The notes under the pieces were generated by a model. That model saw only the letters and a program-made list of their open reading frames with translations, did no database searches and was not told the DNA's origin. The position numbers and the translations under genes were made by a program. From NCBI GenBank assembly GCA_030684555.1, contig JAUXVN010000095.1, positions 1 through 43,575 on the forward strand: a stretch of DNA of 43,575 nt, read 5' to 3'. Below, piece after piece: positions 1,609-16,795 of this stretch (within the stretch, counting starts at the first letter, position 1; every line of letters starts with the position of its first letter). The DNA comes from Ignavibacteria bacterium (GTDB lineage: Bacteria > Bacteroidota > Ignavibacteria > Ignavibacteriales > Ignavibacteriaceae).

Positions 1609-2637
1609 ATGGAAGAAACCCCAAATCAGGAAGTTAAGAAAAAGCCTTATTACAGAAGACCGCGTTACAGAAAAAGACCAACGGATGCGCCTGAACAGAT
1701 TAAAAGACTTCCTAAAAAAATTTCAATTGTTATTCCTCTTTTTAATGAAGAGGAATCATTACAGCCGCTTGCAACGGAAATAAAAAAAGTATGTGAAAAC
1801 TCCAGCATTGAGTTTGATGTTATTTTTGTTGATGACGGGAGTACTGATAAATCACTTAAAGTACTAAAAGATTTAAATAGAATGGACCGAAGATTCAAGT
1901 ATATAAGTTTTCAAAAGAATTATGGTAAATCTGCAGCGTTACAGGTTGGATTCAAACATGTAACCGGAGAAGTGGTAATTACAATGGATGCCGATCTTCA
2001 GGACGATCCCTCCGAAATCCCGAACTTACTCAATAAATTAGATGAAGGCTTTGATCTTGTTTCCGGCTGGAAGAAAAAGCGATATGATCCTTTTATCAAA
2101 AGAATTTCCTCCAAATTTTTTAATTATATCACCGGACTTATGAGCCGTATCAAAATTCATGATTTTAACTGCGGACTAAAGGCATACAGACGTGCTGTTA
2201 TTGATAATATAAAAGTTTACGGAGAGCTTCATCGTTATATGCCGGTGTTGGCTTATTGGCAAGGTTATTCAGTTGCAGAAATTCCTGTTCAACATCATCC
2301 GCGCAGGTACGGTAAAACAAAATTCGGAATCTCCCGCTTCTTCAAGGGATTCATTGATCTTGTAACTGTTATTTTTGTTACCCGTTACATAAAACGCCCG
2401 ATGCATTTATTTGGATTTTTAGGAGCGCTCGCTTTTCTTGTCGGACTTATTGTTAACGGTTATTTGAGTTACGAATGGATAATGGGGCAACCTTTGAATA
2501 ACAGACCAATGTTGTTGTTGGGCATTCTTTTGGTGATTGTGGGAGTTCAGTTTTTCTCGGTTGGATTATTGGGCGAACTTATGGTTCATAATTCACAAGA
2601 TGAATCAGAATACACAATAAAAGAATCAAGAAAGTAA
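1609..2637 (+). CDS. Family 2 glycosyltransferase, DPM/GtrB-like, membrane-anchored
   Basis: It probably transfers a sugar from a nucleotide donor to a polyprenyl phosphate, as ArnC, GtrB and dolichol-phosphate mannose synthases do. The GT-A domain has VIPLFNEEES (41-50), DDGSTD (75-80) and the metal-binding MDADLQDD (126-133). RYGKTKFG (233-240) is the conserved acceptor-side segment. Two membrane helices follow at about 265-285 and 300-322, giving a cytoplasmic enzyme anchored by a hairpin. The N-terminus has about 35 extra residues that are strongly basic and tyrosine-rich, unusual for the family. It is the first gene of the rightward glycan locus. The ATG at 1609 has only a weak ribosome site, so a later start is possible. 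Confidence 0.85.
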   Translation: MEETPNQEVKKKPYYRRPRYRKRPTDAPEQIKRLPKKISIVIPLFNEEESLQPLATEIKKVCENSSIEFDVIFVDDGSTDKSLKVLKDLNRMDRRFKYISFQKNYGKSAALQVGFKHVTGEVVITMDADLQDDPSEIPNLLNKLDEGFDLVSGWKKKRYDPFIKRISSKFFNYITGLMSRIKIHDFNCGLKAYRRAVIDNIKVYGELHRYMPVLAYWQGYSVAEIPVQHHPRRYGKTKFGISRFFKGFIDLVTVIFVTRYIKRPMHLFGFLGALAFLVGLIVNGYLSYEWIMGQPLNNRPMLLLGILLVIVGVQFFSVGLLGELMVHNSQDESEYTIKESRK

Positions 2638-2707
2638 CCCTTTCAAAAGAAGATGAATGTTTTCTTCATCGTTTATTTAATAACTCTTTTCGGAAATAAG
2701 ACATTTC

Positions 2708-3520
2708 ATGCATTACGATCCAATTAAAGATGTTTTTGCCGCAACAATTAGGAAATTTCCATCGTTGCGGGTTCTTTTTTATAAGTCATTAGATTTAATG
2801 TTTCTCCGTTCTTGGTTTGTGCGTCGTGAATTAAAGCGACTCCGTAAGTTTTTCGGCACCAAGAAAATTAATATTTATGATGCCGGTACCGGTTACGGGC
2901 AGTATACTTATTTCATGTCGCAGCATATGTTGCCAAATGAAATTTACGCTGTTGATGTGAAAGATAAATGGATAAAAGATTCAACTCAATTCTTCAAATC
3001 ATACGGATTTAACAGCGTCTCATTCGGAATTGAAGATTTAACTCAAATTATTCATAAAGAAAAATTCGATTTGATTGTTTGTGTTGATGTAATGGAACAC
3101 ATTGAAGATGATGTAAAAGTTTTTCAAAATTACTTCAACGCACTAAAGCCCGGTGGATTTTTATTAATAAATACACCTTCAATTTTCGGCGGAAGTGATG
3201 TTCATGACGAAGGAGAAGAAAGTTTTATCGGCGAACATGCACGGGACGGTTACTCTAAAGAAGATTTTGTTTCGAAGTTAGAACCGATTGGATTTAAAGT
3301 CCATAATTCTCTTTATTCATACGGTTTCTGGGGCGATCTTTCATGGAGACTCGGAATAAAATACCCGATGTTGATGCTCAACTTATCAAAATTGTTTTTT
3401 ATAGTTCTCCCATTTTATTATCTAATAACCCTTCCGTTTACTTTGTTAATGATGAGAATGGATTTTAAAGCAGATAATGATATCGGCGCAGGAATAATCT
3501 TTATAGCAAGAAAAGATTAA
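2708..3520 (+). CDS. Class I SAM-dependent methyltransferase with hydrophobic tail
   Basis: A predicted methyltransferase, 270 residues. Motif I is YDAGTGYGQ (57-65), the acidic ribose-binding residue is in AVDV (81-84), and DVMEHIEDD (127-135) followed by LKPGGFLLINTP gives the post-motif pattern of the Methyltransf_11/23 type. Residues of about 215-250 are hydrophobic, suggesting association with the membrane and a lipid-linked or glycan substrate. It lies 70 bp after the GT2 gene and 40 bp before the YfhO-like gene, on the same strand, so it is probably co-transcribed. The substrate cannot be told from sequence. Confidence 0.8.
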   Translation: MHYDPIKDVFAATIRKFPSLRVLFYKSLDLMFLRSWFVRRELKRLRKFFGTKKINIYDAGTGYGQYTYFMSQHMLPNEIYAVDVKDKWIKDSTQFFKSYGFNSVSFGIEDLTQIIHKEKFDLIVCVDVMEHIEDDVKVFQNYFNALKPGGFLLINTPSIFGGSDVHDEGEESFIGEHARDGYSKEDFVSKLEPIGFKVHNSLYSYGFWGDLSWRLGIKYPMLMLNLSKLFFIVLPFYYLITLPFTLLMMRMDFKADNDIGAGIIFIARKD

Positions 3521-3560
3521 TTTATTCAATTCCTAAATTGAAATTTTTAATGGAGATTTA

Positions 3561-6149
3561 ATGGCAAAGGCTTTGAAAACCAAAACTTCAAAACAAAGCA
3601 GTAACGGCTTTTTAGCTCAATTCAAATTAGAAAATATACTTCCCGAGAAGTACCATGTTCTTGCGGTACTTTTAGTATTGGTAATATTATTTCTCGCATT
3701 TTTAAGTCCGATGTATTTTGGCGGAAAAACTTTTCAATCCGGGGATATTCTTGCTTCTAAAGCGGCTCAACCTTATATCGAAAAAGAACGTGACGGATTT
3801 ACATTATGGAACCCTCACATCTTTTGCGGAATGCCGGCATACTCATTAGGGACCGGTTATACATGGTTTAATTTGATATATGTCGTTTTCACTGCGGCGA
3901 GAAGTCTATTCACTTCTTTCTTTGAAGTTGAATATGCGATGTGGTCATTCTACCTTATTATTCTTGCTTTCACCTCCTTCTTCCTTATGAAATACTTAAC
4001 CAAAAATACGTTGGTAAGTCTATTTACAGCTATAGCTACGTCATTCAGTACGGGATTGATTGTGTTTCTCTTTATCGGGCATGTTACAAAGCTGACATCA
4101 ATTTGTATGTATCCGCTATTATTCCTTCTACTCTTCCGCTTACAAGAAAAATTTAAATTGATAGATTTTCTGCTTTTGATTATAACCATGCAGTTGTTAA
4201 TACAAGGTTTTCACGTTCAGATAATTTTTTATACAATGTTTGCTGTTGGTATTTACTATCTCTATTTCTTCTCAAGAGCAATCGCAATAAAGGATTTGCT
4301 GCTTAGAAATAATTTAATAAAATCTGCAGTTACATTTGCTGGAGCTTCAATTATAGCTTTATTAATTCAATCGGATAATCTCACTCAGATTTATGAATAT
4401 ACACAATACTCAACCCGGGGCGGTAAAAGTGTAGTTGAAGAATCGACCGGAAAGGCGGAGCAATCTTCATCTGAATATTATGAGTATCATACTAATTGGT
4501 CTTTTTCTCCGGGAGAAGTTTTAACGTTTATAATTCCTTCTTATTATGGATTCGGCAATTCGGTATATAACGGACCACTTACTCAAGGAAAAGAGGTTGA
4601 AGTAAATACTTACTTTGGTCAAATGCCTTTTGTTGATGTTGCGATGTACATGGGAGTATTGGTTTTCTTTCTTGCACTCTTTGCAATAGTTACTTGTTGG
4701 AAAAATCCGGTAGTTAGATTTTTAACAATACTAAGTTCTATTGCACTACTAATATCTTTCGGAAAAACTTTTCCGGTTTTATTTGATTTACTTTTTTACA
4801 ATCTCCCATATTTTGATAAATTCAGAGTTCCGTCAATGATTTTGGTTCTTGTACAGTTGAGTTTACCTCTGCTTGCCGGTTATGGAATTATGAAAATCAT
4901 TTCCCTAAAAGGTGAACGAAATAACAAAGCGATTAGTTTAATTAAATATTTAGCATTTGCTTTTACGACACTTTTTGTTTTAACCTTACTTTTTAATAAC
5001 GCATTTTCTGATTCATTTACCAGTAAAGTTCAAAACTCTAATAGATTTAAAAATTTAGAACAAAGTTTTTATTCTTCAATATATCTTTTTGGGAATGAAC
5101 AAATTTCGAAATCTGAATTGGATTCAGCTTTACTGAAACATATTTCGGGGATGTTAATTTCAGATATGCTAATAGCATTTTCAATAACTGCATTGACATT
5201 CTGGTTAGCTTACGGATATATAAAAAACAAATTAAGCCGTGATGTTCTTGTACTTTCAATAATTGTTTTGGCATTAATTGATCTTTGGCGAATTGATTCC
5301 AGAGGGGCAAAATATAGTGATAATCCTGATGTTGACGGCTTATTCAATACACCTGATTATGTAAATGCAATTAGGGGACAAAAAGATTCCGAACCATTCA
5401 GAATATTGAACATGAAACAAGATGGCTCACTCGGTTCGTTTAATCAGAATTCAAATTTTAACGCTTACTTTTTGCTTGAAGATTTTTACGGTTACTCGGG
5501 TATCAAACCAAGAGCTTATCAGGATATTATTGACGTTGTTGGTCCCGTTAATCCTACACTCTGGAATTTAGCAAATGTAAAATATATTATTACAGATAAA
5601 CCAATAATGATGGCAGGTTTAACACAAGTTGCCAGTAGTGAAAAAAGCAGTGTTTATAAAAATGAAGCCGTCTTGCCCAGGGTTTATTTTGTTAATAGAG
5701 TAGAAATGAAAAAGGGAATTGATATTCTTAATTCTATAAAAAACAATGAATTTAATCCTGCGGAAATAGCTTATACCGAAGAAGCTGTTCAAGTTGATCA
5801 ACCCGATTCCACTGCTTCTGTAAGAATAACTAAATATGCAGATGAAAAAATTGTTGTTAATGTAAATGCATCCGGAAATAATTTTGTTGTCTTCACAAAT
5901 ACATACGTTCCAACAGGCTGGAAAGCAACCATTGACGGAAACGATTTAAAAGTTTTTAGAGCAAACCATAATTTTATGGGAGTAGTTGTTCCCAAGGGGG
6001 AACATATTCTTGAGTTTACGTATGCTCCTACAAGCTTTTTCATCAGTAGATGGATCGCATTTATTTTGAGCTCTTTAGTTGTTGCGGGATTGATAATAGT
6101 GCTTCTAATGCAAAAATTATCATCCCGAAAACAAAAAATAAGTAATTAA
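3561..6149 (+). CDS. YfhO-like large polytopic membrane protein
   Basis: The 862-residue protein has about a dozen hydrophobic helices, starting near 33-52, and a last helix near 835-855 followed by a basic end. A soluble, presumably extracytoplasmic segment lies at about 595-830, containing RVYFVNRVE and a beta-rich region ending VVPKGEHILEFTY. This arrangement matches the YfhO family (PF09586), whose members resemble GT-C transferases using lipid-linked sugars; Bacillus YfhO is implicated in glycosylating lipoteichoic acid. An equivalent role in decorating glycan or protein outside the cytoplasm is inferred. The ATG at 3561 follows a GGAG-like site at 3552-3555 with close spacing. It is flanked by a methyltransferase and a flippase. 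Confidence 0.75.
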   Translation: MAKALKTKTSKQSSNGFLAQFKLENILPEKYHVLAVLLVLVILFLAFLSPMYFGGKTFQSGDILASKAAQPYIEKERDGFTLWNPHIFCGMPAYSLGTGYTWFNLIYVVFTAARSLFTSFFEVEYAMWSFYLIILAFTSFFLMKYLTKNTLVSLFTAIATSFSTGLIVFLFIGHVTKLTSICMYPLLFLLLFRLQEKFKLIDFLLLIITMQLLIQGFHVQIIFYTMFAVGIYYLYFFSRAIAIKDLLLRNNLIKSAVTFAGASIIALLIQSDNLTQIYEYTQYSTRGGKSVVEESTGKAEQSSSEYYEYHTNWSFSPGEVLTFIIPSYYGFGNSVYNGPLTQGKEVEVNTYFGQMPFVDVAMYMGVLVFFLALFAIVTCWKNPVVRFLTILSSIALLISFGKTFPVLFDLLFYNLPYFDKFRVPSMILVLVQLSLPLLAGYGIMKIISLKGERNNKAISLIKYLAFAFTTLFVLTLLFNNAFSDSFTSKVQNSNRFKNLEQSFYSSIYLFGNEQISKSELDSALLKHISGMLISDMLIAFSITALTFWLAYGYIKNKLSRDVLVLSIIVLALIDLWRIDSRGAKYSDNPDVDGLFNTPDYVNAIRGQKDSEPFRILNMKQDGSLGSFNQNSNFNAYFLLEDFYGYSGIKPRAYQDIIDVVGPVNPTLWNLANVKYIITDKPIMMAGLTQVASSEKSSVYKNEAVLPRVYFVNRVEMKKGIDILNSIKNNEFNPAEIAYTEEAVQVDQPDSTASVRITKYADEKIVVNVNASGNNFVVFTNTYVPTGWKATIDGNDLKVFRANHNFMGVVVPKGEHILEFTYAPTSFFISRWIAFILSSLVVAGLIIVLLMQKLSSRKQKISN

Positions 6150-6162
6150 TTTCGGAACGAAT

Positions 6163-7500
6163 TTGTCTTCCAGCACAAAAATTAATTTTCGTTCGGAAGC
6201 CTTCTCTAAGTATTTTAAAAATACTGGATGGCTTCTTGGAGAAAAAGTTATACGAATTCTTTTCGGATTTACCGTTAACATTCTTCTCGTCCGTTATTTG
6301 GGGGCGGAAGAGTTTGGTGTTTTTAGTTACGCATTAAGTTATGTCGGGATATTCGCCGCACTTGCTACTCTGGGACTCGATTCTATTATAACACGCGAAA
6401 TAGTTAACCACCCTGAAGATAAACAAAAAATACTCGGCTCGGTTTTTTTATTGCGACTTTCAGGTGCGGTGATTGCATTTATACTCATTTGTATAACTTT
6501 ATTTATTACGGGAGAGACTTCACTAAATGCCTTCTTCATATTAGTACTTTCTGCCGGAATGTTCTTTCAATCATTCTATGTAATTGAGTTTTTCTTTCAT
6601 GCTCAAGTGAAAGGAAAGCTGGTTGCAATAGTTCAATCTATTTCACTTATAACCGCATCATTATTGAAGATTCTATTCATATATCTGCAGGCTCCCTTAA
6701 TTTATTTTGTGATTTTTCAAGTTGTTGAGATTCTGTTAATAGCTATCGGATTAGTAATTGTATTTCAAAAATCAGATGAGAATATTTTTGTATGGAAGTT
6801 TAATAAATCGATTGCCAAAAGATTATTAATTGATGCATGGCCTCTTACAATTGCAGGTGTTGTGATTGGAATATATATGAAAATCGATCAGATAATGATT
6901 GAGAAAATGTTAAACAGCAAAGAACTTGGTTATTATGCTTCTGCAGTTAGGTTGTGCGAGGTTTGGTATTTTATTCCGATGGTAATTAGCACATCACTTT
7001 TTCCTGCGATATTAAATGCGAAAAAAATTGATACAAATCTTTACAACAGCCGCTTACAAAAACTTTATGATCTTATGGCATTTATTTCTATTGCAATTGC
7101 AGTTCCTGTTACTTTCCTTTCTCCCTGGATTATGACTACACTCTACGGAAATGAATTCTTGTTAGGTGCGACTGTTTTAACAATTTATATTTGGGCAGGA
7201 GTTCCGACTTTTCTTGGTGTTGCGAGCAGTCAATTTCTGATAAGTGAAAATCTAACAAAAATATCTTTTTATAGAACACTCGCCGGAATGATTGCTAATG
7301 TTGCTTTAAACTTTTTGCTAATACCAAAATATGGAATAAATGGGGCGGCAAGCGCTACTTTGGTTTCTTATAGTATTGCAACATTTTCAATTGGAATGAC
7401 AAAACAAACATATAACCAACTTGGAATGATGTTGAGGTCTATTTTCTTTTTCTCATTAATCAAATCGGTGGGTATTAATGTCCGTAAAATCTTCAGATAA
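6163..7500 (+). CDS. Wzx-like polysaccharide flippase (MOP superfamily)
   Basis: A membrane transporter expected to flip undecaprenyl-linked oligosaccharide to the periplasmic face. The 445-residue protein is hydrophobic throughout, with about 12-14 helices and the family's typical opening (NTGWLLGEKVIRILFG at 20-35, then LVRYLGAEEFGVFSYA). The C-terminal half carries the helix pairs and NFLLIPKYGINGAA pattern seen in Wzx/RfbX proteins (PF01943/PF13440). The start is a TTG at 6163; no ATG lies before the conserved first helix, so the non-ATG start is likely. It begins 13 bp after the YfhO-like gene, and its last 23 bp overlap the next gene, pointing to one operon. Confidence 0.85.
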   Translation: MSSSTKINFRSEAFSKYFKNTGWLLGEKVIRILFGFTVNILLVRYLGAEEFGVFSYALSYVGIFAALATLGLDSIITREIVNHPEDKQKILGSVFLLRLSGAVIAFILICITLFITGETSLNAFFILVLSAGMFFQSFYVIEFFFHAQVKGKLVAIVQSISLITASLLKILFIYLQAPLIYFVIFQVVEILLIAIGLVIVFQKSDENIFVWKFNKSIAKRLLIDAWPLTIAGVVIGIYMKIDQIMIEKMLNSKELGYYASAVRLCEVWYFIPMVISTSLFPAILNAKKIDTNLYNSRLQKLYDLMAFISIAIAVPVTFLSPWIMTTLYGNEFLLGATVLTIYIWAGVPTFLGVASSQFLISENLTKISFYRTLAGMIANVALNFLLIPKYGINGAASATLVSYSIATFSIGMTKQTYNQLGMMLRSIFFFSLIKSVGINVRKIFR

Positions 7501-8143
7501 ATTAAAAACAATTTTTGAACTTTTGCTAAACCCAAAAGAAATAAACGCATTAATATCTCAAAAGTATAGCGGATACTTGGTTGATATAGGCTGGTTCAAT
7601 AGTTATAAAACTAAGCAATCAATAAATGCCCTTTCGAAACCAATTCCATGGACTACCTATCCTTTTATTGATTTTATTGTCGAAAGATTAAATAAAGAAA
7701 TTACACTATTTGAATATGGTTCCGGAAATTCAACCCTTTTTTGGGCGGAAAGGGTTAAAGAAGTTAACTCAGTGGAACACAGTTCCGAGTGGTTTAAATT
7801 AATTAGTGATAAAACCGCGCATTTGAAAAATGTGGAAATTAAGTATACTGATGCGGCAAAAGATTCATACTCCGATGCGATTAAGTTATTTTCAAAAAAG
7901 TATGACTTTATAATGGTTGACGCTATCGATAGAATTGATTGTATGAAGGCATCTTTAGATTATCTTACGAAAATCGGTGTGGTGATTCTTGATGATTCCG
8001 AGCGTGAAGAATATAGAGAGGGGATAGAGTTTATTGTTAATAATGGTTTTCGTAGAATTGATTTTTGGGGGATTGCCCCAACGATTTTATTCAAGAAATG
8101 CACTACAATTTTTTATCGAAATAATAATTGTTTAGGAATCTGA
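7478..8143 (+). CDS. Predicted SAM-dependent methyltransferase (glycan locus)
   Basis: A 221-residue predicted class I methyltransferase. The SAM-binding loop is LFEYGSGNSTLFWAER (77-92). It is followed by VNSVEHSSEWF, with the acidic ribose contact, and by YDFIMVDAIDR and VVILDDSER, which resemble the catalytic-side strands of the Methyltransf_24 group. The N-terminal 60 residues have no recognised domain. Its start overlaps the end of the flippase gene by 23 bp; GGTGGG at 7467-7472 is a plausible ribosome site for the ATG at 7478. Only 3 bp separate it from the next methyltransferase gene. Substrate unknown; methylation of a sugar in the exported glycan is inferred from context. Confidence 0.72.
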   Translation: MSVKSSDKLKTIFELLLNPKEINALISQKYSGYLVDIGWFNSYKTKQSINALSKPIPWTTYPFIDFIVERLNKEITLFEYGSGNSTLFWAERVKEVNSVEHSSEWFKLISDKTAHLKNVEIKYTDAAKDSYSDAIKLFSKKYDFIMVDAIDRIDCMKASLDYLTKIGVVILDDSEREEYREGIEFIVNNGFRRIDFWGIAPTILFKKCTTIFYRNNNCLGI

Positions 8144-8146
8144 TAA

Positions 8147-8782
8147 ATGAGCATGTATAAAAAATTCAAACAAATAGTCTACAATTTATTTTTTGTCCCT
8201 ATAATTAGAATAAACAATCTGAGACAGTGGAAAAAATATCTAAAAACTACAGCTTCAGTTAATCTAATTGTAGGAGCAGGCGGAACCGAATTTCCTGGGT
8301 GGTTTGCAACAGATATTTGGACACTAAATCTTGTTAATGAAAAAGATTTTGCAAAATATTTCACGAACAAAAAAATTAATAAAATACTCGCCGAACACGT
8401 ACTTGAACATCTTTCAAACGACGATCTTATAAAGATGTTGAATAATTTTTATAAGTATAGCGATCAAAATATCAATATAAGAATTGCTGTTCCAGATGGA
8501 TTTCATTCGGATAAAAACTATATAGAAAGAGTTAAACCCGGTGGATATGGCGAGGGGGCATTTGATCATAAAAATTTATTTACTTACAAATCACTAATAG
8601 AACTATTCGCAACAGTTGGATTCAAATCACAACTGATTGAATATTGGGATGAATCAGGGCGATTTCATACAGTATACTCGAATGATGACAACGGTTATAT
8701 CTCTCGCTCATTAATAAATGACGAGCGCAATGCTGATGGTAAACCGAACTATACTTCATTGATTATTGATTTTTATAAATAA
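8147..8782 (+). CDS. Predicted SAM-dependent methyltransferase, COG4627-like
   Basis: A 211-residue protein with the unusual SAM-binding start NLIVGAGGTEFPGWFATD (39-56) and the diagnostic AEHVLEHLSNDD segment (83-94). These features are typical of short COG4627-type methyltransferases in surface polysaccharide loci. The IRIAVPDGFH segment follows. The N-terminal 30 residues are basic and hydrophobic and could sit at the membrane. The gene is 3 bp after the preceding methyltransferase and ends in front of an AT-rich hairpin, so it is probably the last gene of the first block of the glycan operon. A second ATG two codons in (8153) could also be used. Confidence 0.72.
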   Translation: MSMYKKFKQIVYNLFFVPIIRINNLRQWKKYLKTTASVNLIVGAGGTEFPGWFATDIWTLNLVNEKDFAKYFTNKKINKILAEHVLEHLSNDDLIKMLNNFYKYSDQNINIRIAVPDGFHSDKNYIERVKPGGYGEGAFDHKNLFTYKSLIELFATVGFKSQLIEYWDESGRFHTVYSNDDNGYISRSLINDERNADGKPNYTSLIIDFYK

Positions 8783-8865
8783 ACGAATTTTGTTTAATAC
8801 GTTCAACTGTTTTCAATATTCTTAAATTACACGGGAAATTTAGGATGAAAAACCAGTTATTCACC

Positions 8866-8891
8866 AAAAATCAAAATTTATTTTGATTTTT
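8866..8891 (+). terminator. AT-rich hairpin, probable terminator
   Basis: An 11-bp perfect stem (AAAAATCAAAA / TTTTGATTTTT) with a TTTA loop, 84 bp after the methyltransferase stop and before the lipoprotein gene. The T-run is part of the stem rather than after it, so termination may be partial. Confidence 0.5.
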
Positions 8892-8941
8892 AACAGTAAT
8901 TTAGTTACAATTAATTGTTAAATTATCAAATAGGTGGTGAT

Positions 8942-10267
8942 ATGAAGTCTAAAGTAATTTTATCAATAATCTTTTCCATGTTATTCTTTTCTTCATGTTC
9001 AAGAGATTCTAACATAAACTCTCCAGACGATGCAAATAAGATGGGGGGATTGTTATTAAAAATTGACAAAGAAAATGCCCCATCAAACGTAACAACTGTT
9101 ATAGCTAAACTTACCAGATTAAATTTCCAAACAATTACTTCTTCCATGAACATTCAATCAGATTCTTCTGCTTCGATTCAATTAAATAATATTGCGATTG
9201 GGACATGGAATCTTTTAGTTGAGGCGGTAGATCAACAAAATGTAGTTGTTTATCGTGGCGAGACACAAGTGACTGTTTATGAAAATGCTGTTTCAAATGT
9301 TTCTTTAGTGCTTAATCCAGTCGCATCCGGAGTTGGAACAATTTCAATTTATGTTACGTGGGGAAATGGTGGAACTACTCCTCCCTCAACATGGAATGAT
9401 TATTTGAATAATCCGATTTTAAGTCCGGTTACTCCTTTAGAATCATATGGCGTGGCTCAATCTTATGTCACCATTATAAACAATTCCTATAAAATGTATT
9501 ATACCGGAGTTTTAGCTGCAGCAAGAAAAAATATTCTTATGGCTGAATCGCCTAATGGAATAAACTGGACCAGAAACAATACTTCCGCGATTATCGAACC
9601 GGGACCATCAACTTCATGGGATGGGTTGGCAGTTCATGCAGGACCAATTATTAACATTGATGGACAATACAAAATGTATTACACCGGTTTTGCGAATGCC
9701 TACGGTCAATGGGGAATTGGAATAGCGATCTCTAATGATGGATTGACTTGGACAAAACAAGTTGAGCCTGTTCTTTTAGGAAATCCTAACGGATGGGACT
9801 ATCAAATAGCTGCATGGTCTATTCAAAAAATTGGGAGTTTGTATTATCTCTATTACGGAGGTAAGGCTGCAAATAGTTATAATTCGGTAATGAAAATTGG
9901 AATTGCTACTTCGAGTGATGGTATAAGTTGGAATAGACTCAACTCTAATCCGGTTTTATCACCAACATATTCGTGGGAAATGGCAGGCATTTATCAACCT
10001 TCTGTTATAAAGGATGGAGATTTGTATAGAATGGTTTATGGAGTGTCTGCTTCAACCGGTTTTGGAATGGCTGTTTCAAATGATGGCATCAATTGGGAAA
10101 AAGTCGGTAATACCCAAATTTTTACAACGCAAAACACAACTAATGTTTGGGCTACTGACATTGCGTATCCTTGTTTAGTAAAAGTTGATAATGAATACCG
10201 AATATATTATTCCGGAACCAGGACTAATATTTATAAAATAGGATTAACAAGAAAACCGATTAATTAA
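8942..10267 (+). CDS. Lipoprotein with N-terminal beta domain and beta-propeller
   Basis: A 441-residue exported lipoprotein. The signal peptide ends in the lipobox FSSC (Cys19). A beta-rich domain covers about 30-135, beginning GGLLLKIDKENAPSNV. Then come about five repeats of roughly 55-60 residues with the pattern Y-x-M/L-YY-x-G ... IGIA-S-DG-x-x-W. This is the five-bladed propeller look of GH43/GH32/GH130-like proteins (levanase superfamily); catalytic residues could not be assigned. The start at 8942 is chosen because AGGTGGTG (8932-8939) sits just upstream; an ATG 27 bp earlier has no such site. It is paralogous to the gene at 11285. Glycan binding or trimming at the cell surface is inferred. 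Confidence 0.75.
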   Translation: MKSKVILSIIFSMLFFSSCSRDSNINSPDDANKMGGLLLKIDKENAPSNVTTVIAKLTRLNFQTITSSMNIQSDSSASIQLNNIAIGTWNLLVEAVDQQNVVVYRGETQVTVYENAVSNVSLVLNPVASGVGTISIYVTWGNGGTTPPSTWNDYLNNPILSPVTPLESYGVAQSYVTIINNSYKMYYTGVLAAARKNILMAESPNGINWTRNNTSAIIEPGPSTSWDGLAVHAGPIINIDGQYKMYYTGFANAYGQWGIGIAISNDGLTWTKQVEPVLLGNPNGWDYQIAAWSIQKIGSLYYLYYGGKAANSYNSVMKIGIATSSDGISWNRLNSNPVLSPTYSWEMAGIYQPSVIKDGDLYRMVYGVSASTGFGMAVSNDGINWEKVGNTQIFTTQNTTNVWATDIAYPCLVKVDNEYRIYYSGTRTNIYKIGLTRKPIN

Positions 10268-10277
10268 AATATTTTTC

Positions 10278-10306
10278 AAACCCCAAGCAACAACTTGGGG
10301 TTTTTT
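10278..10306 (+). terminator. Rho-independent terminator
   Basis: AAACCCCAAG and CTTGGGGTTT form a perfect 10-bp GC-containing stem around a 6-base loop, followed by further T residues, 10 bp after the lipoprotein stop. It ends the first propeller-lipoprotein unit inside the glycan locus. Confidence 0.9.
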
Positions 10307-10362
10307 GTCTTAATTTTTTTGAATTAAATACATTCAAATGATTTTCAAGATTAAATTCTTTT

Positions 10363-11274
10363 ATGACTTCATACGCACCCATTGCCCTTTTTGTTTATAA
10401 CCGTTTAGTGCATACTAAAAAAACTATTGATGCGCTTAAACAAAATGCTTTAGCAGATAAATCGGATCTGATAATTTTCTCTGATGGTGCTCGTTATGAA
10501 AGAGAGAAACAAAAAGTAAATGATTTAAGAAATTATCTTGATACTGTCTCAGGATTTAACTCGATCAAAATTGTTAAAAGAGAAAAGAACTTTGGATTAG
10601 CAAATTCTATTATTGATGGAGTTACAACTGTAATTAATGAGTATAAAAAAATTATAGTTCTGGAAGATGACCTTGTCACTTCACCTTATTTTTTACAATA
10701 TATGAATTCCGCTTTAACTCTTTATCATGATAATCCAAAAGTTGCAAGCATTCACGGTTATGTTTATCCGGTTGAGGAAAATCTTCCGGAAAATTTCTTT
10801 TTGCGAAGTGCTGATTGTTGGGGTTGGGGAACGTGGGAAAGAGCGTGGAATCTCTTTAATCCTAATCCAAACGAGCTGCTTGCTGAATTAAAAAAGCAAA
10901 ATCTTTTATATCAATTTGATATAAACGGTTCTACACATAATGTGAAGATGCTAAAAAATCAAGCATCGGGAAAAGTTGATTCATGGGCTATCAGATGGCA
11001 TGCTTCAATCTTTTTGAAAAATATGTTTACACTTTATCCCGGGAAGTCGTTAGTGCAAAATATCGGGACAGATGGCGAAGGAACACACACAAATTCAACT
11101 AATGTTTATGAAGTTATTCTTTCTGAAAAAAATATTGAGATAAAAGATATTCCCGTTGAAGAAAATGAACTTGCACTAAAAGCATTTGAGAAGTTTTTTA
11201 TCTCGATTAAACCAAACTTCATTTCGAGATTCGTTAAGAAATTAATTTACGACAAAAATGTCAACAACATCTAA
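10363..11274 (+). CDS. GT-A fold glycosyltransferase (GT2/GNT-I-like)
   Basis: A 303-residue cytoplasmic glycosyltransferase. The N-terminus PIALFVYNRLVHTKKTI (6-22) and LIIFSDGAR (36-44) form the nucleotide-binding half. IIVLEDDLVTSPYF (97-110) carries the metal-binding acidic triad in the EDD form used by GNT-I-like enzymes. DCWGWGTWERAWNLF (151-165) is a highly conserved acceptor-side block in bacterial O-antigen and capsule members. No membrane helix is evident. It stands alone between the two paralogous propeller lipoproteins: a terminator lies upstream, and the next gene starts 10 bp after its stop. Donor and acceptor sugars cannot be predicted. Confidence 0.8.
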   Translation: MTSYAPIALFVYNRLVHTKKTIDALKQNALADKSDLIIFSDGARYEREKQKVNDLRNYLDTVSGFNSIKIVKREKNFGLANSIIDGVTTVINEYKKIIVLEDDLVTSPYFLQYMNSALTLYHDNPKVASIHGYVYPVEENLPENFFLRSADCWGWGTWERAWNLFNPNPNELLAELKKQNLLYQFDINGSTHNVKMLKNQASGKVDSWAIRWHASIFLKNMFTLYPGKSLVQNIGTDGEGTHTNSTNVYEVILSEKNIEIKDIPVEENELALKAFEKFFISIKPNFISRFVKKLIYDKNVNNI

Positions 11275-11284
11275 AGGTGAAATA

Positions 11285-12598
11285 ATGAAAAAAATCTTTT
11301 TTGTTCTAACCGTATCTCTGATTGTTTTTATGACCGGATGCTCAAGACAAGAGCCTAATTCTCCAAACCCTGACGGCGGCAGCGGAGGAGGCGTTATGCT
11401 AAAAATTGACCGCGAAAATGCACCTTCAAATGTAAATGTTGTAACTGCAGTCCTAAAAAAGGGAGCCGATTCATTAGTAGGCAATTTAGATTTAACATCA
11501 TCAACATCAGCCGATATTACATTCCAATCAGTTCCTATTGGAACATGGCACTTAAAAGTTGATGCAAAAGATATTAATAATGTTGTGGTCTATTCGGGAC
11601 AAACTTCTGTATTAGTTCAAGAGAATTCAACAACTCAGGTTAATTTAACCCTAGTCCCATCTGCAACCGGTGTGGGGAGCATTAATTTGACTGTTACTTG
11701 GGGAAACCAACCAACAGAGTGGACGGATCACTATGCAAACCCAATAATCAGTGGAAATAATTCAAGTTTTGAAACTGGTGGGGTAAGAATGCCAAGGGTT
11801 CTTTTGGATGACGGTGTTTACAAAATGTGGTTTGTGAGTCTTGGAAGTAGTGGTGCTTCTTCTATAAGTTATGCTACATCAAGCAATGGAATGCTTTGGA
11901 ATAGATATTCCAATAATCCGGTACTACTACCTGGAATAGGAAGTAATGGATGGGATTCCCATTCAATTACACCAGGGGCGATTATAAGAGACGATTCAGG
12001 ATACAAATTGTATTATTCCGGAACGATTTCTAATTCGGATCCAACTCATATTGGAATGGCAACTTCTACAGATGGAATTAATTGGGTTAAGACACCGATG
12101 CCTATATTATATGCTGGTACATCATGGGATTATCTAATGTCTTGTGGAGATGTGATAAAAATTGGTTCCGTTTATTACATGTATTACTCAGGCAAATCCC
12201 AAAGCAATGTTGTTAAAATTGGATTAGCAACTTCAACCGATGGAATTAACTGGGTAAAGCATGAGGGCAACCCGATACTCCAACCTTCTCAAGCATGGGA
12301 AAGTACTGGCATTTATAGTCCATCTGTTGTAAAGATTGGTGAAGTATATAAACTCTTTTATGCAAATGTAACAAACACGAACATTAAAGGATTTGGTGTC
12401 GCAACATCTGCTAACGGTATTAACTGGGTAAAAGAAACTTCTAATCCATTTTTCACACAATCAAACACACACAATAATTGGGTGGACTATATTCAAGATC
12501 CATCCGCTCGATTGATTAATGAAAAGGTTTGGATTTATTACTCGGGATTCAATCCGGTTGGATATGTAAATAGTATTGCTGTACTAAAACATAACTAA
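11285..12598 (+). CDS. Lipoprotein with N-terminal beta domain and beta-propeller (paralogue)
   Basis: A 437-residue paralogue of the protein at 8942, with the same plan: signal peptide with lipobox MTGC (Cys19), a linker rich in Gly/Ser/Pro, a beta domain opening VMLKIDRENAPSNV, and about five propeller repeats of the YKLYYSG ... IGMATSTDGINW type. The ATG at 11285 is preferred over one 27 bp upstream because AAAGGTGA (11273-11280) sits correctly before it and the longer form would overlap the previous gene. Ten bp separate it from the glycosyltransferase, so the two may be co-transcribed. A strong terminator follows. Its role is unknown; a surface carbohydrate-active or carbohydrate-binding role is inferred from fold and neighbours. 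Confidence 0.75.
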   Translation: MKKIFFVLTVSLIVFMTGCSRQEPNSPNPDGGSGGGVMLKIDRENAPSNVNVVTAVLKKGADSLVGNLDLTSSTSADITFQSVPIGTWHLKVDAKDINNVVVYSGQTSVLVQENSTTQVNLTLVPSATGVGSINLTVTWGNQPTEWTDHYANPIISGNNSSFETGGVRMPRVLLDDGVYKMWFVSLGSSGASSISYATSSNGMLWNRYSNNPVLLPGIGSNGWDSHSITPGAIIRDDSGYKLYYSGTISNSDPTHIGMATSTDGINWVKTPMPILYAGTSWDYLMSCGDVIKIGSVYYMYYSGKSQSNVVKIGLATSTDGINWVKHEGNPILQPSQAWESTGIYSPSVVKIGEVYKLFYANVTNTNIKGFGVATSANGINWVKETSNPFFTQSNTHNNWVDYIQDPSARLINEKVWIYYSGFNPVGYVNSIAVLKHN

Positions 12599-12616
12599 AC
12601 CAAATTCTTTATAAAT

Positions 12617-12650
12617 AAAAACCTATAACAAAATGTTATAGGTTTTTTTA
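12617..12650 (+). terminator. Rho-independent terminator
   Basis: AAACCTATAACA (12619-12630) and TGTTATAGGTTT (12634-12645) are perfect complements around an AAA loop, then a T-run. It ends transcription after the second propeller lipoprotein. Confidence 0.88.
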
Positions 12651-12729
12651 TTTTATCTTTTCGTCATCATTAAGTAATTATATAAAGATAAAAATCAGTA
12701 TTTTCCATATTGAAAATAAAAATTGATAT

Positions 12730-13398
12730 ATGGTAAATAACATTAATTCACCCTTTTCTAACGATAATCGTAATTACGATTACACCGGGTTAGAGATTGA
12801 AGAACGCAAGGAATATCAACGCATTGCAGAATTGGTTAACCCATCATCAAATATCATTGATTTGGGATGCGGTAATGGATCTCTTATGCAAAAGCTTCAA
12901 AGCGAACTTAACTGCAATGTGACAGGAGTTGAAATATCTGAAACGGGTGTAAACATTTGTAAAGCAAAAAAACTAAATGTTTTCCAAGGAAGTATTGATA
13001 GTCGTCTACAATTTGACGACAATTCGTTTGATTTTGCAATTTGTAATGTAACTATACAGATGGTTATGTACCCTGAGGTGCTGTTATCAGAAATGAAAAG
13101 AATTGCAAAGTTCAGTATAATTTCGTTCCCCAACTTTGCCTACTTTAAAAATCGAATTGATTTAATTATGCACGGAAGAATGCCTCGCCCAATGTTATTC
13201 AATTACAACTGGTATAATACTGGGCATATACATCAACTATCAATGTTAGATTTTGAATCTATAGTTGAAAAAGTGGGGGGATTGAAAATCATTAAAACTG
13301 ATTTAGAAAAAACAAATACATTTAGTAAAGATATCTTATTAAAGGCATTTCCTAATCTATTCCAAATTCTACCGATTTATGTCCTGGAGAAAACTTGA
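12730..13398 (+). CDS. MetW-like SAM-dependent methyltransferase
   Basis: A 222-residue member of the MetW family (PF07021). The SAM-binding motif is IIDLGCGNGSL (42-52). The family-specific block SFPNFAYFKNRIDLIMHGRMP, followed by NYNWYNTGHIHQLSMLDF, is clearly present near residues 135-175. Classical MetW works with the homoserine acetyltransferase MetX in methionine synthesis. No metX is nearby, and the gene sits directly before an FkbM-type methyltransferase with a TGATG overlap, so a glycan-modifying role is more likely here (inference). It starts a new transcription unit after the terminator at 12617-12650. Confidence 0.85.
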   Translation: MVNNINSPFSNDNRNYDYTGLEIEERKEYQRIAELVNPSSNIIDLGCGNGSLMQKLQSELNCNVTGVEISETGVNICKAKKLNVFQGSIDSRLQFDDNSFDFAICNVTIQMVMYPEVLLSEMKRIAKFSIISFPNFAYFKNRIDLIMHGRMPRPMLFNYNWYNTGHIHQLSMLDFESIVEKVGGLKIIKTDLEKTNTFSKDILLKAFPNLFQILPIYVLEKT

Positions 13399-14354
13399 TG
13401 AATCTACTTAAAAAAATATTTGATCAAGAAGAGTTTAAAATTAAACCACCGGTTTTAATTGATATCGGAGCTTCCGGTCATATACATTATTCGTGGAAGA
13501 AAATAGCACCCTACTCAATTTGTGTAGCGTTTGATGCAGATAATCGTGAGTTTAAAGTAGATGACTCAACATCGAAAGGGTTTAAAAAACTTTATACATT
13601 CAATGCACTCGTATCAGATGTGAACGAAGTAAAAACAAACTTTTTTCTAACCAGATCTCCATATTGTTCAAGTGCACTAAAACCGGATCAAGAAAAATTG
13701 AACAAATGGGCCTTCGCAGAAAAATTTATTGTTGATTCGTCAATACAGTTAAACTCAACGACAATTAATAACGCATTAAAACAGATTGGAATAGATTATA
13801 TTGATTGGTTTAAGACTGATTCGCAGGGTATGGATTTACGTCTATTCAGAAGTTTGGGTAATGAGAATATAAAGAATATTCTTGGTGTTGAAATGGAACC
13901 GGGAATAATTGATTCGTACATAGGAGAAGATAAACTTCCTACAATATTGAATTTTATGAGCGGAAATGGTTTTTGGCTTGCAGATATTATTGTCAAGGGT
14001 TCACAAAGGATTTCGAATAAAACCATGAGTAATATTTCAGCCTCCTCGTTTTATCGAAAAGTAATTTCATTTTCACATAAAAAAAGCCCCGGTTGGACAG
14101 AGTTGTTGTTTTTCAATGAAATTATGCCCTCGTTTACAAAGAGAGAATTTATGTTAGCGTGGGTGTTTGCCATAATTCAAAAGCAGTATGGTTTTGCTTA
14201 TGAAATTGTTGAGGAAGCAAAAACGAAATATCCAGATTCGATCTTTAGTGAAATGATGAAAAAGACAAAATATCTGCTCATGTTCAATTTATTTAATCTT
14301 AACTTATTAAAAACCGTTAAAGAGAAAATATCAAAAATGTTAAGTCTTGACTAA
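13398..14354 (+). CDS. FkbM-family methyltransferase
   Basis: A 318-residue protein resembling FkbM-type methyltransferases (PF05050), which usually O-methylate sugars or polyketides. VLIDIGASG (19-27) is the SAM-binding loop and VAFDADNREF carries the ribose-binding acid. IDYIDWFKTDSQGMDLRLFRSLG near 130-150 corresponds to the family's conserved D-x-x-K-x-D-x-(E/Q)-G-x-(E/D) signature, with Gln in place of the usual Glu. A C-terminal region of about 100 residues beyond the core has no recognised domain. The ATG at 13398 shares bases with the preceding TGA; a TTG one codon earlier is an alternative. It is tightly coupled to the MetW-like gene, and the next gene starts 3 bp after its stop. Confidence 0.78.
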   Translation: MNLLKKIFDQEEFKIKPPVLIDIGASGHIHYSWKKIAPYSICVAFDADNREFKVDDSTSKGFKKLYTFNALVSDVNEVKTNFFLTRSPYCSSALKPDQEKLNKWAFAEKFIVDSSIQLNSTTINNALKQIGIDYIDWFKTDSQGMDLRLFRSLGNENIKNILGVEMEPGIIDSYIGEDKLPTILNFMSGNGFWLADIIVKGSQRISNKTMSNISASSFYRKVISFSHKKSPGWTELLFFNEIMPSFTKREFMLAWVFAIIQKQYGFAYEIVEEAKTKYPDSIFSEMMKKTKYLLMFNLFNLNLLKTVKEKISKMLSLD

Positions 14355-14357
14355 TCT

Positions 14358-15344
14358 ATGTATAACTTCTGCACCCTGTTTGATACACATTATTTCTCAA
14401 GAGGACTTGCTCTTTATTATTCATTAGAGGAGCATTGTTCGGATTTTCATCTCTACATTTTTGCGTTCAATGATAAGGCTTATAACACATTATTAAAACT
14501 AAACCTTTCTAAAGCGACAATTATCTCGCTTAAAGAGTTTGAAGATGAAGAATTATTGAAAGTTAAACCATCTCGAAATATTGCCGAATATTGTTGGACT
14601 TCCACTTCATCAACAATTCTTTATGTTCTTGAGAAATTTAGAGTTGAAAGCTGTACCTATTTGGATGCCGATTTATATTTTTATTCTTCACCCAAACCTT
14701 TATTTGATGAACTTGGTGAGAATTCGATTTTTCTTACAGAGCATAGATATTCTCCTCAATACAACAAAGAAGTTAAAAGCGGAAAGTATTGTGTTCAGTT
14801 TGTAACTTTTAAAAATGATGAACGTGGTTTGAAAGCATTAAAATGGTGGCGTGAAAGATGTCTTGAATGGTGCTATGCCCGTTATGAAGATGGAAAATTC
14901 GGCGATCAGCTTTATCTTGATGATTGGACGGAAAGATTCGACGGTGTACATGTGATGAAACATCCTGGCGGTGGATTGGCTGCATGGAATGTTCAACAAT
15001 ACTCGTTTATTAAAGTCCGAAATACAATAGTCGGAACAGAGTTAGCTACAGGAAAAAAGTTTGATGTTATTTTTTATCATTTCCATTACTTGAAGTTTTT
15101 TACGAATGGCAGAATTGAACTTGGGAGAAGAGTCTTATCCGATAACGCAAAAAATATATTCTACAAACTATATATAAAAAAACTTGATGAGATAAAGAAT
15201 AAAATTAACAAGATTGATAATTCATTTGATCCGCATGGAACTTCTGAAGAACCAATTAATTGGAAAACACCGCTCCTTTTTGTATATAGAAAACTTACTA
15301 ATGGATATAATTTGTATAACAAAACTGAATTTATGAAAGACTAA
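14358..15344 (+). CDS. GT-A glycosyltransferase (GT8/GT77-like)
   Basis: A 328-residue predicted nucleotide-sugar transferase. It begins FCTLFDTHYFSRGLALYYSL (4-23), the donor-binding start seen in GT8-like enzymes. TYLDADLYFYS (100-110) carries the D-x-D metal site. KFGDQLYLDDW and the HPGGGLAAWN block match the later conserved acceptor-site segments of hypothetical bacterial members of this group. No signal or membrane helix is evident, so it should act in the cytoplasm on a lipid-linked intermediate. Its stop is directly followed by the ATG of fdtA with no gap, so it may use the sugar made by FdtA/FdtB; that link is inference. Confidence 0.72.
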   Translation: MYNFCTLFDTHYFSRGLALYYSLEEHCSDFHLYIFAFNDKAYNTLLKLNLSKATIISLKEFEDEELLKVKPSRNIAEYCWTSTSSTILYVLEKFRVESCTYLDADLYFYSSPKPLFDELGENSIFLTEHRYSPQYNKEVKSGKYCVQFVTFKNDERGLKALKWWRERCLEWCYARYEDGKFGDQLYLDDWTERFDGVHVMKHPGGGLAAWNVQQYSFIKVRNTIVGTELATGKKFDVIFYHFHYLKFFTNGRIELGRRVLSDNAKNIFYKLYIKKLDEIKNKINKIDNSFDPHGTSEEPINWKTPLLFVYRKLTNGYNLYNKTEFMKD

Positions 15345-15713
15345 ATGGCTCACATTATAAATCTAACAACCCACTCCGATAAACGCGGAAATTTAACTGT
15401 AATTGAAAAAGAAATTCCTTTTGTTATAAACAGAATATTTTACATCTACGGAGTTGACGATTCTGTTCGGGGTGGACATCGTCATAAAACTACTATTCAA
15501 GCTGCAATATGTATTCATGGAAACTGCATTGTATCCAGCAATAACAGTAGTAAAGTGATTGAAGATTATCTCCTTGATCATCCGAGTAAATGTTTAATAC
15601 TTAATCCGGAAGATTATCATACGATGCACCACTTTTCTTCAGATGCTGTTTTGCTTGTGTTGGCTTCTACCCCATTTGATGCTTCCGATTATATTTACGA
15701 GGATCATAAATGA
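15345..15713 (+). CDS. fdtA: FdtA/QdtA-type dTDP-4-oxo-6-deoxyhexose 3,4-ketoisomerase
   Basis: A single cupin domain of 122 residues (WxcM-like, PF05523). The enzyme class moves the keto group of dTDP-4-oxo-6-deoxy-glucose from C4 to C3, ahead of transamination. [19 protein letters not shown] (41-59) holds the two histidines (45 and 47) known to be essential in Fdt[14 protein letters not shown] near 85-97 is the second cupin strand. Length is close to the family norm of about 130-140. It overlaps the aminotransferase gene by 4 bp (ATGA) and abuts the glycosyltransferase. Sequence alone does not separate FdtA (galacto product) from QdtA (gluco product), so the symbol is provisional. Confidence 0.82.
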
Positions 15714-16795
15714 TTGAATACGAAAATCTTGGACTTCTAAATAAATCTTTTTTTGAAGAATATGAAAAATCTTTCTCGAACACACTTAAAAGCGGTTGGT
15801 ATATACTCGGTAAAAATGTTCTAACTTTCGAAAAAGAATTTGCTGAATATCACTCAACAAAACATTGTATTGGAGTAGCATCCGGTTTAGATGCATTAAT
15901 ACTAGCTCTAAAAGCATTTAACTTTGAACCCGGAAGCGAAGTAATTGTTCCGTCAAATACTTATATCGCAACAATACTTTCCATTCTTCACAGCGGATTA
16001 AAACCTGTTTTAGTTGAACCAGACATTAATACCTACAACATTGATCCCAAATTAATCGAAGAGAAAATCACCTCTAAAACAAAAGCTTTGATGATAGTCC
16101 ATCTTTACGGTAAAAGTTGCGAGATGGAACCTATTATTAATTTGGTAGAAAAATATTCACTTAAACTCATTGAAGACTGCGCACAATCTCACGGTGCGAC
16201 ATACAAAGGAAAACTTACCGGAACATTTGGAGATTTCGGTGCATTTAGTTTTTATCCAACTAAAAATCTTGGGGCGCTTGGTGATGCCGGAGCGGTTTTA
16301 ACCAATAACGATGAGCTTTCGCTGGCAATTAAGCGTTTGCGTAATTATGGTTCTGATATAAAATATTACAATGAACTTGTTGGTTACAATTCACGATTAG
16401 ACGAAATACAAGCAGGTTTTTTATCGATAAAATTGAAATCGCTTAACACCATTAATGAACACAAAAGAAAATTAGCCCAAATATATTTTGACAATCTTAA
16501 AAGTGATTTCATCCTTCCACAAGAACATTCAGATTACTACGATGTCTTTCACATATTTGCAATTCGCCATGAGCAGCGTGATAAGCTGAAAGATTATTTG
16601 ATGAAGCAAGGAATTAAAACTGAAATTCATTACCCCGTTCCTCCACACAAACAAAAGGCTATGATTGGGATTTTAGATAATGAAAGTTATGCAATCTCAG
16701 AGGAAATACACTCAACGGAATTAAGTCTTCCGATTTCATATTTCCATGCAGAGGAAGAAATTTATCAAGTAGTCGAAGTGATGAATAAGTTTTAG
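15710..16795 (+). CDS. fdtB: FdtB/QdtB-type sugar aminotransferase (DegT/DnrJ/EryC1/StrS)
   Basis: A PLP-dependent transaminase of 361 residues that should convert the 3-keto sugar made by FdtA to dTDP-3-amino-3,6-dideoxyhexose. The PLP lysine is Lys185 in [27 protein letters not shown] (153-163) carries the Asp that contacts the pyridine nitrogen (Asp156). [17 protein letters not shown] (80-96) and the [14 protein letters not shown] block are typical of the fold-type I VioA/FdtB group. It overlaps fdtA by 4 bp. Neither the acetyltransferase (FdtC/QdtC) nor rmlA/rmlB lies in this window, so the amino sugar may stay free or be modified by an enzyme encoded elsewhere. Its stop abuts the stop of the convergent next gene. 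Confidence 0.88.

Follow-up and report, generated by a model that had tools for sequence, protein, structure and literature searches.

Propeller lipoproteins in an Ignavibacteria glycan locus as candidate accessory glycan-binding proteins

Two lipoprotein genes within a glycan locus

A contig of an Ignavibacteria bacterium (GenBank assembly GCA_030684555.1, contig JAUXVN010000095.1), analyzed here as a single stretch of 43,575 nucleotides that we call the window, encodes two lipoproteins, P1 and P2, on either side of a glycosyltransferase gene (Table 1). Each consists of an N-terminal domain (N-domain) followed by a propeller. A sequence-only reading of the window had identified both frames as lipoproteins, and we confirmed their coordinates, a signal peptide, and a lipid-bearing Cys19 in each; a cysteine occupies this column in 34 of the 38 rows of an alignment of full-length homologues. 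The same reading took P1 and P2 to be paralogues that bracket one glycosyltransferase inside a biosynthetic glycan cluster, which also holds. The two proteins are 40% identical over 431 columns (E 1e-98), with 54 of 113 positions identical in the N-domain and 108 of 287 in the propeller, and off-register matches between the repeats of P1 and those of P2 have E values of 4e-15 to 1e-8. The surrounding glycan locus spans 1609–16795. A search of the genome with P1 returned no copies beyond P1 and P2.

Table 1. Positions of the two lipoprotein genes, their domains, and associated features
Feature	Position	Strand	Basis
P1: lipoprotein, 441 amino acids, N-domain and five-bladed GH43/GH130-type propeller	8942..10267	+	open reading frame, signal peptide, Pfam, structure model
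P1 N-terminal beta-sandwich domain, residues 30–143	9029..9370	+	
P1 propeller, residues 149–441	9386..10264	+	structure model
Intrinsic terminator-like hairpin 3′ of P1	10278..10303	+	z -4.4, 0 of 200 shuffles as stable
P2: lipoprotein, 437 amino acids, architecture like that of P1 by sequence	11285..12598	+	
P2 N-terminal domain	11372..11710	+	
P2 propeller	11714..12595	+	borders taken from the P1 alignment
Intrinsic terminator-like hairpin 3′ of P2	12617..12647	+	z -5.7, 0 of 200 shuffles as stable
GT2-type glycosyltransferase between P1 and P2	10363..11274	+	PF00535, 24.1 bits against a cut-off of 23.3 (weak)
Upstream half of the locus: GT2, methyltransferase, YfhO, Wzx-type flippase, two methyltransferase-like genes (below Pfam cut-off)	1609..8782	+	
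Downstream half of the locus: MetW-like methyltransferase, two genes without a Pfam match, FdtA, DegT aminotransferase	12730..16795	+	
Ordinary GH130 of the same genome	L032:1420-2364 (G000:C134:6547-7395)		EDPR; sole full GH130-family match elsewhere in the genome

The suggestion that P1 and P2 pair as a system found no support. In the tree, P1 groups with its orthologue from a genome of the same genus (G001; support 100/100), and P2 with a gene from another genus (G029; support 99/96). The same-genus genome carries the P1 orthologue and has an 85-nucleotide gap at the place of P2. Because P1 and P2 group with different genera and G001 has no gene at the place of P2, P1 and P2 are not conserved together as a unit. 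We rejected a recent tandem duplication, for which the tree, its bootstrap not yet converged, gave no support. A viral origin was likewise rejected: no viral contig matched the patterns of P1, and the best PHROGs match had an E value of 0.14.

The hairpins downstream of P1 and P2 both carry T tails, in agreement with the proposal that each gene is followed by a strong terminator. The further proposal, that each gene can be expressed separately, fails for P2, which starts 10 nucleotides past the glycosyltransferase stop codon (11274 to 11285). Because only these 10 nucleotides separate them, the glycosyltransferase and P2 look like one unit, and only P1 could form its own unit on both sides. 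Promoter-like sites lend this no support, with 50 found against 74.4 expected from shuffles, that is, fewer than chance. Across homologous regions, a terminator-like hairpin lies within 120 nucleotides downstream of 9 of 25 propeller genes, compared with 1 of 139 genes detected by hidden Markov models (HMMs) of the locus and 8 of 187 other frames; the median downstream gaps are 110, 4, and 37 nucleotides, respectively. The three classes come from the same regions and comprise genes whose next gene is on the same strand. Propeller genes in this way break up tightly packed operons. Outside the glycan locus, the window also encodes a Calcineurin-like phosphoesterase with a weak CBM9-like match (23421–25142).

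Propeller fold and catalytic positions

In the P1 model, residues 149–441 form a five-bladed propeller, with the predicted local distance difference test score (pLDDT) mostly above 90; the architecture of P2 is known from sequence alone. The closest structure is the GH137 protein 5mt2 (Z 30.5; root mean square deviation 2.9; 282 residues aligned), the GH137 domain of BT_0996, followed by the GH130 phosphorylase 7fip_D (Z 30.2; root mean square deviation 2.2; 266 aligned). The two are tied within 1 Z, and the model conforms to both the GH137 fold and the GH130 propeller fold. The top structural matches are carbohydrate-active proteins, and P1 shares its fold with glycosidases and phosphorylases rather than having an unrelated one.

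The blades account for the roughly five propeller repeats of GH43/GH32/GH130 pattern described from the letters, as do partial repeat matches in Pfam. Summed over such matches, GH130 (PF04041) scores 69.8 bits in P1 and 63.3 bits in P2 (cut-off 26); partial matches to GH32N give 35.5 and 43.8 bits (cut-off 22.1), and those to GH43 give 41.7 bits in P1 only (cut-off 32.2). The NCBIfam equivalog for beta-1,2-mannobiose phosphorylase scores 83.9 and 73.3 bits against a cut-off of 450, and all the enzyme models listed fall far below their cut-offs.

In GH130 enzymes, the catalytic aspartate lies within an E/Y-D-P-R (EDPR) motif at the top of a strand A, and EDPR is seen in the ordinary GH130 of the same genome (L032), which itself lies directly after a longer frame of no assigned family. 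One report describes this invariant aspartate as the sole candidate acid (Asp142 of BT3780) and the GH130 hydrolase BT3780 as slow and lacking a classical acid (PMC4599007). Among the 38 full-length homologues, an acid occupies the GH130 Asp position of blades 1–5 in 3, 1, 0, 2, and 1 sequences, respectively, with blade registers set by sequence rather than by coordinates; two residues past this position, blade 3 has an acid in 12 of 38. Because the Asp position is non-acidic and the NCBIfam scores are far below cut-off, membership among active GH130 enzymes is unsupported, and P1 and P2 are probably not canonical GH130 enzymes.

The acids that are conserved (Asp227, Glu346, Asp266, and similar) fall in W-(D/E) and S-x-D-G-x-x-W repeat motifs and are read as structural. 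GH43 and GH32 enzymes place their catalytic Asp/Asp/Glu at the strand-A tops of blades 1–3; the strand-A tops tested, with registers set by sequence, hold no conserved acid. Ten funnel-top positions of our own choosing have a mean entropy of 2.67, compared with 1.75 at other strand positions (p 0.0035; against the rest of the propeller, p 0.03), a variability that fits differing ligands but would also fit plain loss of constraint.

Homologues, their loci, and the stem domain

P1-type matches occur in 41 of 97 genomes, the genome of the window included. With the best 80 of 192 relatives retained, the genomes that show the full-length architecture have record labels, taken unchecked, reading Ignavibacteria, Ignavibacteriales, Ignavibacterium, Melioribacter, Chlorobiota, Bacteroidetes, Bacteroidota, and in one case Bacteroidales, and propellers lacking the N-domain appear across many phyla. 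The N-domain occurs in 43 of 294 genomes of the class and in 18 of 395 genomes drawn from the phylum, of which 4 lie outside the class, two of them with weak matches.

We defined a full-length set of 38 homologues by excluding the 8 of 46 matches that scored under 200 bits; it includes three fragments or broken frames (L055 at 1199, L065, and L066) and one frame without a start (L059 at 10216). We examined regions of up to 20 kb, 40 of them surrounding a homologue and 20 surrounding control places in relatives, the latter self-placed, drawn from 11 relatives, and situated on contigs with a propeller match of their own. The genes of the window served as seeds for the glycan HMMs, which were built on target and control regions pooled, so loci of other make-up score zero and close relatives score best; frames are longest-frame calls rather than gene predictions. 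These HMMs detected 84 glycan genes in the 678 kb of homologue regions and 4 in the 398 kb of controls. At least two glycan genes (glycosyltransferase, Wzx, FdtA, or DegT) lie within 8 kb of 26 of 38 homologues and of 0 of 20 controls (Fisher 1.3e-7), and at least one lies that close to 28 of 38 and 3 of 20 (Fisher 2.4e-5); the 38 homologues are not independent, and these statistics ignore shared descent. A strict linkage, with glycan genes always adjacent, had to be rejected, as 10 of 38 homologues have none nearby. The linkage to glycan genes is strong, not strict.

Within one kind of locus, with the order GT2-MT-YfhO-Wzx-MT-MT-GT-MetW-GT-FdtA-DegT (GT, glycosyltransferase; MT, methyltransferase), we counted about eight arrangements of the propeller gene: on either side of the middle GT, between YfhO and Wzx, following DegT, preceding GT2, and at other places and edges. 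The glycosyltransferase that separates P1 and P2 has matches with E values of at most 1e-20 in 37 of 97 genomes, and 13 of these, counting the window, have a propeller gene in the same region, either full-length or cut by the contig. Twenty further regions around this glycosyltransferase, picked because no propeller had been seen there and some of them on short contigs, gave no match to the N-domain or propeller HMMs; in 12 of the 20, YfhO and Wzx stand alongside the glycosyltransferase. Three genomes of this propeller-free set (G003, G007, and G011, the last with its glycosyltransferase region not fetched) hold a propeller gene or a broken copy elsewhere. Two sister relatives, G010 and G035, match at 91% DNA identity along 9.2 kb of the locus. 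At the locus edge, G010 encodes a propeller lipoprotein (L229:1232-2629), and G035 encodes instead, as judged by eye, a type IX secretion system (T9SS)-type cargo protein with YCF48-like repeats and a methyltransferase-like frame (L228:2211-6561).

Some homologous regions show other features. A supported clade (L045:9279-10643 and L047:1990-3327) divergently adjoins the LpxC-FabZ and LpxA genes of lipid A synthesis. Two proteins (L072:9442-10749 and L075:5970-7313) have, by eye, these same blade repeats with a T9SS-type C-terminal sorting tail and no lipoprotein stem. Broken copies also occur: one propeller gene is spread over several frames (G007:C83:37013-38302), and another, in a Melioribacter record, has an early stop (L109:1841-3106), suggesting decay or sequencing error. 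In one control region (L090; G073:C80:60000-79900), a single frame stays open through all 19.9 kb and would encode over 6,600 residues; the pooled Pfam families of the controls exclude this region.

Modelled alone, the N-domain of P1 (residues 30–143) forms a beta-sandwich with a mean pLDDT of 78. We rejected a specific fold assignment for it: the best matches are to C2- or fibronectin-III-type sandwiches, with Z no higher than 8.9 and Foldseek E no lower than 1.4e-3, in the range of common arrangements. In the wider class, 34 N-domain proteins lie in 30 regions (L178–L207), and 12 of them have a GH-type propeller. We scanned ten proteins with other heads in Pfam, namely eight of the 22 that lack the propeller and two from the order, and judged the remaining heads by eye. 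Four of the ten carry LamG (Laminin_G_3), one is 3-keto-disaccharide-hydrolase-like (27.0 bits against 26.8), and five have no Pfam family above its cut-off, a second kind of propeller being recognized among these by eye. To judge by these domain combinations, the N-domain is a modular lipoprotein stem carrying different heads.

Around 19 of the loci with other heads (L178, which also holds a propeller copy, was left out), the families most frequent among the 109 neighbours are Glycos_transf_1 (9), methyltransferases (8), GT4 (6), T9SS sorting tail (6), epimerase (5), GT2 (5), and YfhO (4). Of these families, only the T9SS sorting tail is among the top 25 of the 183 families of 114 control genes, the last of the 25 having 2 members; the control genes come from the order of the window and the 19 loci from elsewhere in the class.

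Function of the propeller lipoproteins and comparison with known systems

We tentatively read P1 and P2 as accessory, exchangeable, non-catalytic glycan-binding lipoproteins, the explanation we favour although the odds are slightly against it; the binding, its glycan, surface exposure, and the role are things we infer. A constant beta-sandwich stem and lipid anchor would carry a glycosidase-derived, non-catalytic five-bladed propeller, whose central funnel would most likely bind carbohydrate. The ligand would plausibly be the surface glycan made by the host locus, as the linkage suggests, and the role would be to tether or recognize the cell's own coat. The genes behave as add-on cassettes, found at many positions in the locus, often with their own terminator, missing from it in relatives, and with a stem that also bears other heads. 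Of the two activities that the sequence-only reading had offered, binding or trimming of the glycan made by the neighbours, binding fits better and trimming less well, the GH130 Asp position being non-acidic in every blade.

Several observations weigh against this reading. The scatter of homologues away from glycan genes that would speak against a glycan role was found in part: the ten such homologues adjoin dihydrolipoamide dehydrogenase-like, LpxC/LpxA, DnaN-like, thioredoxin, and other genes, several of them named by eye, and several homologues neighbour housekeeping or T9SS-cargo genes. In the wider class, the window-seeded HMMs detect one or more glycan genes in 7 of 11 propeller-protein regions and none in 4, and at the loci with other heads they find a window-type glycan gene in 6 of 19 and none in 13. 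On the tree, residence inside or outside a glycan locus takes 10 changes against a shuffled mean of 11.7, with 63 of 500 shuffles as low, where all rows beyond the 12 regions judged empty were labelled as glycan, some of them (L039, L040, L179, and L203) on one match or none. Residence is not clearly clustered, and the glycan link may therefore reflect a hotspot. The glycan locus also exists without a propeller gene in relatives, and the glycan therefore does not need the gene. At the funnel top, Tyr409-Pro410 are the only strongly conserved residues (32 of 38 each). Finally, the lipoprotein export signal described for Bacteroidota is K-(D/E)2 or Q-A-(D/E)2 after the cysteine (PMC5080379), and neither P1 (CSRDS) nor P2 (CSRQE) has it, the motif being one of other Bacteroidota from which the signal of this class may differ. 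Of 74 rows, the pattern used recognized 54; the 20 that it missed mostly have the cysteine by eye or are fragments, and an earlier cysteine was picked in at least two rows. The earlier assignment to the surface is thus backed by the lipid cysteine but not by the export motif.

The main rival is that the lipoprotein merely hitch-hikes. Glycan loci would be hotspots of recombination where variable surface proteins accumulate, and a lipoprotein carried along in them might bind a foreign glycan, another cell, or a phage, or be a variable antigen. Variable positions, own terminators, presence and absence among relatives, and the ten homologues outside glycan loci all suit it, as does the locus edge at which G035 has, in place of the lipoprotein of its sister G010, a methyltransferase-like frame and a T9SS-type cargo that bears another repeat propeller. 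We nevertheless regard this explanation as somewhat unlikely, given that the heads on the stem are often of sugar type (GH-type propeller in 12 of 34; LamG or 3-keto-disaccharide-hydrolase-like in 5 of the 10 others scanned) and that glycan genes recur beside part of the other-head proteins.

Active enzymes, which would hydrolyze, lyse, or remodel the glycan of the neighbours by non-GH130 catalysis (centred, for example, on Tyr409), would account for the fold common to GH130, GH137, and GH43 enzymes, for the Pfam GH130 score over cut-off on the repeats, and for the retention of Tyr409-Pro410, and BT3780 itself is slow and without the classical acid (PMC4599007). Catalysis appears distinctly unlikely all the same: no blade has a conserved acid at its strand-A top, the best of the listed NCBIfam enzyme models reaches 83.9 bits against a cut-off of 450, and variability is higher at the funnel tops than elsewhere on the strands. 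A carrier or substrate, glycosylated by the locus and anchoring its glycan, would be sited as P1 and P2 are, within the locus beside glycosyltransferases. This is very improbable, as the locus occurs without the protein and the Bacteroidota O-glycosylation motif, D-(S/T)-(A,L,V,I,M,T), shows no enrichment (0 in P1 and 1 in P2, against 1.2 and 1.5 expected by shuffling).

A wider and rather doubtful proposal is that the surface glycan loci of the class carry interchangeable, glycan-matched lectins. A constant lipid-anchored stem would accept swap-in heads (GH43/130-type propeller, LamG, 3-keto-disaccharide-hydrolase-like, or second propeller), encoded as self-terminated cassettes in the biosynthetic operon, and would tether or recognize the cell's own coat, with coat and receptor inherited together. 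Were this so, a coat polysaccharide and the protein that recognizes it would pass on as one exchangeable block, cells would have a means of keeping the coat on or of telling self from non-self, and genes of this kind, which automatic annotation would label glycosyl hydrolases by Pfam score, would be binding proteins. The modest reading alone corrects the glycosyl hydrolase label and provides 38 homologues, their loci known, on which it can be tested.

Among open-licence papers, mostly represented by listings, we recognized no description of the system or its parts, the topic of GH137 included. The propeller of P1 has its best structural match in GH137 BT_0996, a protein whose overall architecture differs from that of P1 and P2. 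GH130 structures share with P1 the five-bladed propeller and the blade repeat pattern (Z 27.3–30.2; 19–24% identity); unlike GH130, P1 and P2 lack the catalytic Asp of the EDPR motif, have a lipoprotein stem, and are sited in a biosynthesis locus. Sus-like surface glycan-binding lipoproteins combine a lipid anchor with a beta-sandwich part and a sugar-binding part, a layout that P1 and P2 may share, but P1 and P2 lack the K-(D/E)2 export signal and are sited in glycan biosynthesis loci. The LamG lipoproteins of the same class have the N-domain in common with P1 and P2 and a Concanavalin-like head where P1 and P2 have the propeller, and some of them likewise lie in loci with YfhO, Wzx, and glycosyltransferases.

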